From Porifericola rhodea (GTDB lineage Bacteria > Bacteroidota > Bacteroidia > Cytophagales > Cyclobacteriaceae), in the NCBI RefSeq assembly GCF_030506305.1, contig NZ_CP119421.1:3488501-3552500 (forward strand): a stretch of DNA of 64,000 nt, read 5' to 3'. The position numbers and the translations under genes were made by a program. The notes beneath the pieces were generated by a model, which had not been told where the DNA came from, did no database searches, and saw only the letters and a list, made by a program, of their open reading frames with translations. Below are positions 30,836-53,558 of this stretch, in pieces (the stretch's first letter is position 1; every line of letters begins with the position of its first letter).

Positions 30836-30969
30836 CTCATCATAAATAGCAATTAAATATTTTGAAGCAGTTAAAGGGCGTGCTTTTTCAATGGCTGAGA
30901 GAAACTTCTTTGTTCTCTCCACGAATTGGTATAGCTTTGAGCTTTCGTTCTTTGATAGCTTCAACATCA

Positions 30970-31165
30970 GCCGTTATAGGTTTCACTTAAGGTGAATTAA
31001 TAGGGAATCGTGTGCAAATCACGAGCTGTCGCGCAACTGTAAATAACATTAGAGTTTTTGCCCTTGTACTCCACTGCAACATGCGGGAAGGATGGCAAAA
31101 ATGTTATAAGCCAGGAGACCTGCCTGTTACGAGATGACGATGCCTTCGCGATCTGAGGTTTTAGT
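30970..31165 (+). promoter_or_regulatory. cobalamin (adenosylcobalamin-type) riboswitch
   Basis: The conserved blocks occur in the right order: ATAGGTTTCAC near 30976, AGGGAATCGTGTGCAAATCACG near 31002-31025 (stem with a GTGCAA loop), AGCTGTCGCGCAACTGTAA, and the B12 box AAGCCAGGAGACCTGCCT at 31108-31125, then the closing arm ending in TTTAGTCAGGATTGATGC. It precedes metE, the cobalamin-independent methionine synthase. B12 binding is known to switch off metE in organisms that also have a B12-dependent enzyme. About 200 nt separate the aptamer from the metE ATG; a small CGGG/CCCG hairpin near 31313-31325 lies in that stretch and could be part of the expression platform. Confidence 0.92.
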
Positions 31166-53360: not shown

Positions 53361-53392
53361 AAAAAAAACAGGCAAGCTAAAAAGCCTGCCTG
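53361..53392 (-). terminator. intrinsic terminator of the tRNA gene
   Basis: On the minus strand CAGGCA-GGCT-TTTT-AGCT-TGCCTG forms a 10-bp hairpin immediately followed by eight T (53368 down to 53361). It begins 7 nt after the 3' end of the tRNA at 53399, so the tRNA is a single-gene transcript. Confidence 0.85.
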
Positions 53393-53398
53393 TGATAG

Positions 53399-53512
53399 CT
53401 GTAGGAGAAGGAGTCGAACCTCCACGGAGCGGTTAGCTAGCCGAGGCTAGTTTATTCCGTTGTCTCCACCCTCGAGACGGGAGGGCATGTCTGCCAATTT
53501 CATCACCCTACA
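53399..53512 (-). tRNA. class II tRNA-like gene, Leu-like body, anticodon uncertain, very long variable arm
   Basis: 114 nt without encoded CCA. On the minus strand: acceptor TGTAGGG/TCCTACA (7 bp with one G-T), TG, D-arm ATG/CAT with loop containing TTGG as in leucine tRNAs, anticodon stem CCCTC/GAGGG (perfect 5 bp) with loop CCGTCTC, T-stem GGAGG/CCTTC with loop TTCGACT, discriminator G. Odd points: position 33 is C, not U; the formal anticodon would be GTC (Asp), yet the body is Leu-like; leucine tRNAs normally carry discriminator A; the variable region is 45 nt (53424-53468), about double the usual maximum, with nested stems GGAG/CTCC, CGG/CCG and CTAGC/GCTAG. The tertiary-contact positions (GG, TTCGA) are intact. 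The amino acid cannot be assigned with confidence. Confidence 0.75.
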
Positions 53513-53520
53513 TTTTTAAA

Positions 53521-53558
53521 ATTGATAACGTATTATCAATATTGTTACAACAAATATA
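53521..53558 (-). promoter_or_regulatory. promoter box and palindrome before the tRNA-like gene
   Basis: On the minus strand TATATTTG (53558-53551) fits the TAnnTTTG box of Bacteroidota promoters. Between it and the tRNA lies ATTGATAACGTATTATCAAT (53521-53540), an 8-bp perfect inverted repeat around CGTA, ending 8 nt before the tRNA 5' end. The palindrome would be in the transcribed leader or overlap the start site: either an operator or a hairpin guiding 5' processing. Confidence 0.5.

Follow-up and report, generated by a model that had tools for sequence, protein, structure and literature searches.

What does a tRNA-like gene do for its host when its product seems not to be built for reading codons? 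This question is raised by a gene on the minus strand at positions 53398..53512 of the window (the whole stretch of 64,000 nucleotides of DNA that was analysed). The original prediction described a tRNA-like gene with a full cloverleaf, a C at position 33, a GTC triplet, a G discriminator and a 45-nucleotide arm of three stems, and left its role to be chosen among a non-decoding tRNA, a recoding tRNA and a decaying copy. The description holds; as to the role, the comparative evidence favours the first option and refutes the last.

The window RNA, which comprises 115 nucleotides and scores 130 bits with a covariance model of the family (‘R1’), has an acceptor stem of 7 pairs formed by UGUAGGG (53506..53512, minus strand, with U1 at 53512 and G2 at 53511, both invariant in 82/82 family members) and UCCUACA (53400..53406, minus strand, with A72 at 53400). 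The D arm is of the leucine type, the anticodon stem (CCCUC/GAGGG) is a perfect helix of 5 bp, and the T arm reads GGAGG-UUCGACU-CCUUC. The loop CCGUCUC (C32, C33, G34, U35, C36, U37 and C38; 53474..53480, minus strand) belongs to a family in which positions 35, 36 and 38 are invariant, 33 is free and 37 is a pyrimidine. The variable region of 45 nucleotides (positions 44-48; 53424..53468, minus strand) forms three stacked stems, of 4, 3 and 5 pairs in one assignment, for which there is covariation. The discriminator is G73 (53399), and it is followed by an encoded C74 (53398), which extends the gene one base past the end at 53399 first given to it and leaves the rest of the proposed span as it was. 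This encoded C74 can be considered normal, because among the 35 ordinary tRNA genes that were examined from the genome, 34 likewise end with the discriminator and a C (the remaining one carries the full CCA). The promoter box and terminator ascribed to the gene are also in place: a Bacteroidota-type -7 box, TATATTTG (TANNTTTG type; 53551..53558, minus strand), lies 38 nucleotides upstream of U1, and an intrinsic-terminator-like hairpin followed by a T-run occupies 53368..53393 on the minus strand (1 found versus 0.3 expected).

Standard tools pass over this gene. ARAGORN reports 0 tRNAs within the 64-kb window, a search of Rfam 15 relaxed to E<=10 still shows no tRNA there, and the RNA does not reach the gathering score (29 bits) of the Rfam tRNA model RF00005; a scan of the genome with that model, in which 150 of 308 candidates were scored, returned 40 matches, neither of the genome’s two copies of the RNA being among them. 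Folded alone, the window RNA is not unusually stable (z -1.28, with 29 of 200 shuffles equal or better), and the structure predicted from this one sequence differs from the cloverleaf; the evidence for the cloverleaf comes from comparison. Two competing structures were rejected on the same comparative grounds. The GUCUC/GAGAC hairpin of the single-sequence fold is pairable in 86.3% of cells, but shows no two-sided change and does not exceed shuffles, and a shifted anticodon register (CUC, with U35 taken as U33) is at odds with an anticodon stem that covaries in its normal register (columns 60-61 with 75-76).

A DNA search returned matches at E<=0.01 in 74 of 98 genomes (the window’s own and relatives, some of the matches being partial); often one genome has several copies, which may stand in tandem, and the second copy in the window’s own genome is 93% alike to the first. 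When 37 sequences are fitted to the cloverleaf, 97.5% of cells are paired and 57 two-sided changes are seen, in the variable arm as well as the cloverleaf, against a shuffle mean of 16.3 and with none of 500 shuffles reaching that number. The 118 distinct rows now available give 530 two-sided changes versus 134 when shuffled, in an alignment that was model-fitted and so leans toward the model. By these comparative measures the family possesses a 7/5 cloverleaf, in which the tertiary bases are canonical and the pair changes compensatory. In the window’s genome R1 gives the two copies 131.4 and 130 bits, and the best ordinary tRNA, a tRNA-Leu, 51.7 bits. Across 395 genomes of the phylum (E<1e-14, with 8 candidates scored per genome, so that absences of the RNA are soft) it finds matches in 38 of the 98 genomes of the window’s class and in 3 of 297 others, the latter making up a single family (f67; loci L063 and L184) that was taken as Ignavibacteria. 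The members in G187, G069 and G462 were confirmed by eye, and G071 was examined separately. A pattern scan of named genomes yielded at least 120 stretches which, apart from one titled ‘bacterium’, come from genera that we take to belong to Bacteroidota or Ignavibacteria; the pattern was built from members that include the window copy, and its 1 match (0 in 100 shuffles) therefore cannot serve as independent evidence. The RNA is also present in 10 IMG/VR viral contigs, and a 636-kb phage record matches the RNA of one of these at 75.5%; the window sequence itself has no match among annotated phages, and a plasmid search with the RNA returned none.

This is thus a conserved family of tRNA-like RNAs, widespread in Bacteroidota and present also in Ignavibacteria and in some viral contigs. 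It is apparently undescribed so far: among the titles and abstract openings of the open PMC literature no paper appears to treat it, and it adds to the known RNAs a family that is missing from Rfam 15 and that ARAGORN passed over in the window. A -7 promoter box precedes 127 of 185 first-of-array copies, versus 13.5 expected from shuffles and 11 in a downstream control. A decaying or chance copy is ruled out by the conservation across Bacteroidota, the covariation, these promoter boxes and the linkage to a regulator described below; a mobile-element remnant was likewise rejected, as the flanks mostly differ (tandem copies apart) and most first-of-array copies carry a promoter box.

Loop statistics were drawn from loci L001-L068 only (83 rows, 82 of them unique, found by BLAST or R1), because loci fetched with the pattern had part of the loop fixed; R1 was itself trained on family members and so mildly favours their loop. 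Throughout the 82 unique members U1-A72, G2-C71, U3-A70, G73, C74, U35, C36 and C38 are invariant. G34 is found in 79 (C34, U34 or A34 replaces it in some lineages) and A20a, in one numbering, in 81, while position 33 is T in 51, G in 17, C in 7 and A in 7, and position 37 is always a pyrimidine (T in 81, C in 1). The acceptor end lies outside the pattern, and 158 of 160 unique pattern-derived rows have U1-A72; the two exceptions are one copy in L088 (A1) and one ordinary phage tRNA-Asp that passed the 3'-end filter. The variable region spans 39-121 nucleotides, with the window’s 45 near the small end, and a probable Hymenobacter relative (G071) has a version of 77 nucleotides that lacks the long arm, keeps the acceptor end and has CTATCTC as its loop (L276, G071:C23:55337-55413), which ARAGORN calls a tRNA-Asp. 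For these two reasons the long arm is not the key feature: what the family conserves is the acceptor end together with positions 35-38 of the loop, and not the ability to read codons. All 35 ordinary tRNAs examined in the genome have U33 and a purine at 37, the combination expected of a decoding elongator and one that the family lacks. A free position 33 and a pyrimidine at 37, set against those 35, indicate that the RNA is very probably non-decoding, and that it is real, conserved and outside decoding can be said with high confidence.

Several features of individual lineages can be recorded alongside. Many variable arms contain a self-complementary GAGCTC, and a long-armed subtype (L042, L046, L049-L052, L055, L058, L071 and others) has a conserved inner motif, GGGTTGACCAC, in which two positions vary. 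A 3' trailer, GGTTATTTTGGGTTTATTGTTAATTGA, is conserved before the terminator in L013, L014, L016, L017, L022, L024, L027, L028 and L030, and Phaeodactylibacter xiamenensis has a tandem array of five copies at a spacing of ~151 nucleotides (L148 312-1053).

The constant bases can be compared with those that specify known tRNAs. Strong aspartate determinants, in the account of PMC9976931, are G73, G34, U35, C36 and C38, of which the family has the first and the last three in 82/82 members and G34 in 79 (the C34, U34 and A34 lineages fail at that position). The same account gives U1-A72 as a determinant of amidation and G1-C72 and U20a as antideterminants, and U1-A72 marks GatCAB substrates in PMC4206432 also; with U1-A72 in every member and A20a in 81/82, the family has the bases of such a substrate. 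Among the 35 ordinary tRNAs of this genome, U1 begins tRNA-Asn and tRNA-Gln only. The likeness to tRNA-Asp extends to G34 (79/82), U35, C36, C38, G73 and G2-C71, whereas the family differs from it in its class II body, its U37 or C37, its free position 33 and its U1-A72, where bacterial tRNA-Asp has a G1-C72 that is described as crucial for identity (PMC9976931). With class II tRNA-Leu it shares A15-U48, G18G19 and A20a, as PMC9976931 lists them for E. coli, the placement of the arms and the position of best ordinary R1 match (51.7 bits versus 131), but G73 stands in 82/82 where tRNA-Leu has A73 (PMC9976931), there is no leucine anticodon, 33 is free, 37 is a pyrimidine and the variable region reaches 121 nucleotides. 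G73, G2-C71 and a long variable arm are found as in tRNA-Ser (82/82 refers to the bases alone), and the G1-C72 kept in most bacterial tRNA-Ser (PMC9976931) is replaced by U1-A72 throughout. The mixed identity suspected earlier is thus real, and the invariant bases read as joining AspRS determinants (the loop and G73) with a GatCAB determinant (U1-A72) on a leucine-like body.

GatCAB is normally kept for Gln-tRNA or Asn-tRNA where GlnRS or AsnRS is missing (PMC4206432), and for that reason both synthetases were examined together with it. The search for GatB (TIGR00133), by which alone GatCAB was judged, covered the same 395 genomes. In the window’s class GatB is present in 38/38 genomes with the RNA and in 3/60 without (G138, plus weaker matches in G249 and G295). 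Among the 80 genomes in which synthetases were tested (the 38 with the RNA and 39 of the 60 without, plus the three Ignavibacteria), AsnRS is over its cut-off in 80 and GlnRS in 72; those without GlnRS are G365, G071, G088 and G478, which have the RNA, G138, and the three Ignavibacteria. The missing GlnRS explains the exceptional GatB of G138, and in the Ignavibacteria and the 4/38 RNA-bearing class genomes GatCAB has, for the same reason, another job anyway. In the 72 class genomes that possess both synthetases, GatB is found in 34/34 with the RNA versus 2/38 without it. Fisher’s test gives p 3e-18 for the association between GatB and the RNA, a value uncorrected for phylogeny in an association that is phylogenetically clumped; within families, f23 contains 7 genomes with both and three (G099, G218, G450) with neither, and f24 contains 11 with both and two (G114, G211) with neither.

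An ordinary bacterial AspRS is encoded in the window’s genome. AsnA or an AsnB-like gene over its cut-off occurs in 33/38 RNA-bearing class genomes, the window’s included, where the AsnB-like gene scores 500.7 bits versus 267.1 and lies below the E. coli AsnB cut-off (323.9 versus 499). The AsnB model presumably takes in paralogues also. By E-value, in counts where one search scored 3 candidates per genome, neither AsnA nor AsnB is found in 5/38 genomes with the RNA versus 2/60 without, and the two profiles do not cleanly split the one group from the other.

When neighbouring proteins were clustered for 168 loci, a set that includes some duplicates and 10 loci of viral contigs, an AsnC-like regulator was found upstream on the opposite strand, and hence divergent, in 109, the six nearest lying at 123-134 bp; it is in 0/10 of the viral loci. 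The genome’s second copy of the RNA has this arrangement and the window copy does not. The best solved relative of the regulator is E. coli AsnC (2cg4, E 1e-33; the next at 3e-24) and its best NCBIfam model is AsnC in 4/4 proteins tested, which score 160-170 bits and do not reach the 227-bit cut-off of the AsnC equivalog NF008384. A match to the regulator at E<=1e-10 persists in 29/30 genomes chosen for having no strong RNA match; in 30 loci from such genomes R1 detects no member of the family, its one match there being of 16 bits and 74 nucleotides (L257). The next commonest neighbours, named from their translations, are sufB (21 loci), trmB downstream (14) and a CoA-ligase gene (12), and no recurrent gene in the 168 loci was recognised as an acceptor enzyme. 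In its 14 loci, L042, L052, L071 and L173 among them, the trmB gene (read from its translation as a tRNA m7G methyltransferase) follows the RNA closely, in the same orientation.

Armed with these observations, we would give an even chance to the proposal that the RNA is a tRNA dedicated to the tRNA-dependent formation of asparagine and not to decoding. AspRS would charge it with aspartate through G34-U35-C36, C38 and G73; GatCAB, whose part is backed by its co-occurrence with the RNA, would recognise U1-A72 and amidate the aspartate to asparagine in place; and the asparagine would then leave by hydrolysis or be passed to an acceptor. A charged molecule bearing a GUC triplet must not reach aspartate codons, and this need would account for the missing U33 and purine at 37: with any base at 33, a pyrimidine at 37 and so large a variable arm, the Asp- or Asn-charged form may be kept away from those codons. 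The copy that is divergent from the AsnC-like regulator is presumably the ancestral one and presumably under its control, and the window copy, which has a promoter box and terminator of its own, would be a dispersed paralogue. The fuller picture, a class of tRNA spread through the phylum that has given up decoding to serve purely as a carrier in amino-acid biosynthesis, loaded by AspRS, converted by GatCAB, set in level by the AsnC-like protein and carried by phages as well, stands at a little under even. Against an asparagine carrier count the non-universal G34, the U1-A72 where tRNA-Asp has G1-C72, the AsnA or AsnB-like genes of 33/38 RNA-bearing genomes, and the regulator’s scores below the AsnC cut-off.

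The strongest alternatives, both unlikely, accept a non-decoding RNA and differ over its use. It might be a regulator, a tRNA mimic that the AsnC-like protein controls and that would itself bind AspRS or a different synthetase, or signal the amino-acid state, with no amidation involved, and GatCAB would then be tied to it only as a second ancestral trait lost together with it. The divergent regulator and the non-decoding loop would suit such a role, for which the tRNAOther pseudo-tRNA of Bacillus cereus is a precedent (PMC3399842); yet it leaves the invariant U1-A72 and G73 unexplained, and gives no reason for GatB to be kept with the RNA in the presence of GlnRS and AsnRS (34/34 versus 2/38). 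An equally improbable proposal is that the RNA carries glutamine (charged by GluRS and then amidated by GatCAB), or that after charging it donates aspartate or asparagine to a lipid, a peptide or the cell wall. U35-C36 is common to aspartate and glutamate anticodons, acceptor pairs 1-3 match those of the genome’s tRNA-Gln, and the three f13 genomes tested lack GlnRS and have copies with C34 (G088, G478) or A34 (G071); however, G34 in 79/82 and C38 in 82/82 fit aspartate, C38 being found in the genome’s tRNA-Asp, tRNA-His and one tRNA-Leu and not in tRNA-Glu, the linked regulator is AsnC-like, and no recurrent neighbour was recognised as an acceptor enzyme.

Ordinary tRNA-Asn is another candidate partner of GatCAB, which might serve a non-discriminating AspRS on it, as in Bdellovibrio (PMC4206432). 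That paper suggests that asparagine may be made on tRNA-Asn in bacteria that combine AsnRS, GlnRS and GatCAB, a group that takes in some Bacteroidetes; at balanced odds, the RNA described here would act as carrier in place of tRNA-Asn or in addition to it.

A decoding tRNA with an unusual loop and arm, reading aspartate (GAN) codons under some condition, is very unlikely. U33 is present in 51/82 members, the 3' end (C74) is written like that of ordinary tRNA genes, and ordinary tRNA genes share the locus in 6/10 viral contigs (L193, L195, L197-L200), but a pyrimidine at 37 in all 82 and a free position 33 contrast with 35/35 normal tRNAs, the genome has a normal tRNA-Asp, and position 34 varies in some lineages. 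Least probable of all is a role against tRNA-cutting toxins, for which phages and hosts would carry the RNA as a decoy or substitute, since such an RNA, however well it would suit the copies in 10 IMG/VR contigs and one 636-kb phage record (75.5% identity) and the multiple tandem copies of many genomes, would not be expected to be deeply conserved in chromosomes with an AsnC-like regulator and GatB, and an anticodon decoy needs no invariant acceptor end.

The proposed asparagine carrier resembles the synthesis of asparagine on tRNA-Asn in Deinococcus, Thermus and Bdellovibrio (as described in PMC4206432) in its use of AspRS and GatCAB despite the presence of AsnRS and GlnRS, and of U1-A72 as the handle for GatCAB; it differs in that the carrier would be a separate, non-decoding RNA with a leucine-type body and an aspartate-type loop. 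If correct, it would account for the retention of GatCAB in many Bacteroidota that have AsnRS and GlnRS, a puzzle raised for bacteria in PMC4206432, and would provide a clear example of a tRNA that has specialised in metabolism and not in translation. The 34 GatB-containing genomes with both synthetases contrast with the survey of PMC3927822, where GlnRS-containing Bacteroidetes within a set of 14 genomes are without gatCAB, save Salinibacter ruber. With tRNAOther the family would share, as a tRNA-like RNA, a role outside translation; tRNAOther, however, is described from Bacilli and is part of longer iron-responsive RNAs (PMC3399842), whereas the present family is wide, has promoter boxes close by and is linked to AsnC and GatB. 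Allo-tRNA, selC-tRNA-Cys and tRNA-Sec have a long variable arm too, but with longer acceptor and anticodon stems (PMC7609411), in contrast to the 7/5 acceptor/T arm and 5-bp anticodon stem found here.

Two further observations lie outside this argument. Viral contigs L194 and L200 hold odd tRNA-like genes that start with AGTCAGG, end in AC and have strange or enlarged anticodon regions (L194:4587-4706, L194:9979-10112, L200:3000-3089 and L200:3170-3299), with R1 scores of 36-45 bits. Elsewhere in the window, a cobalamin riboswitch (RF00174) is found on the plus strand at 30961-31141, with a score of 102.6 bits.
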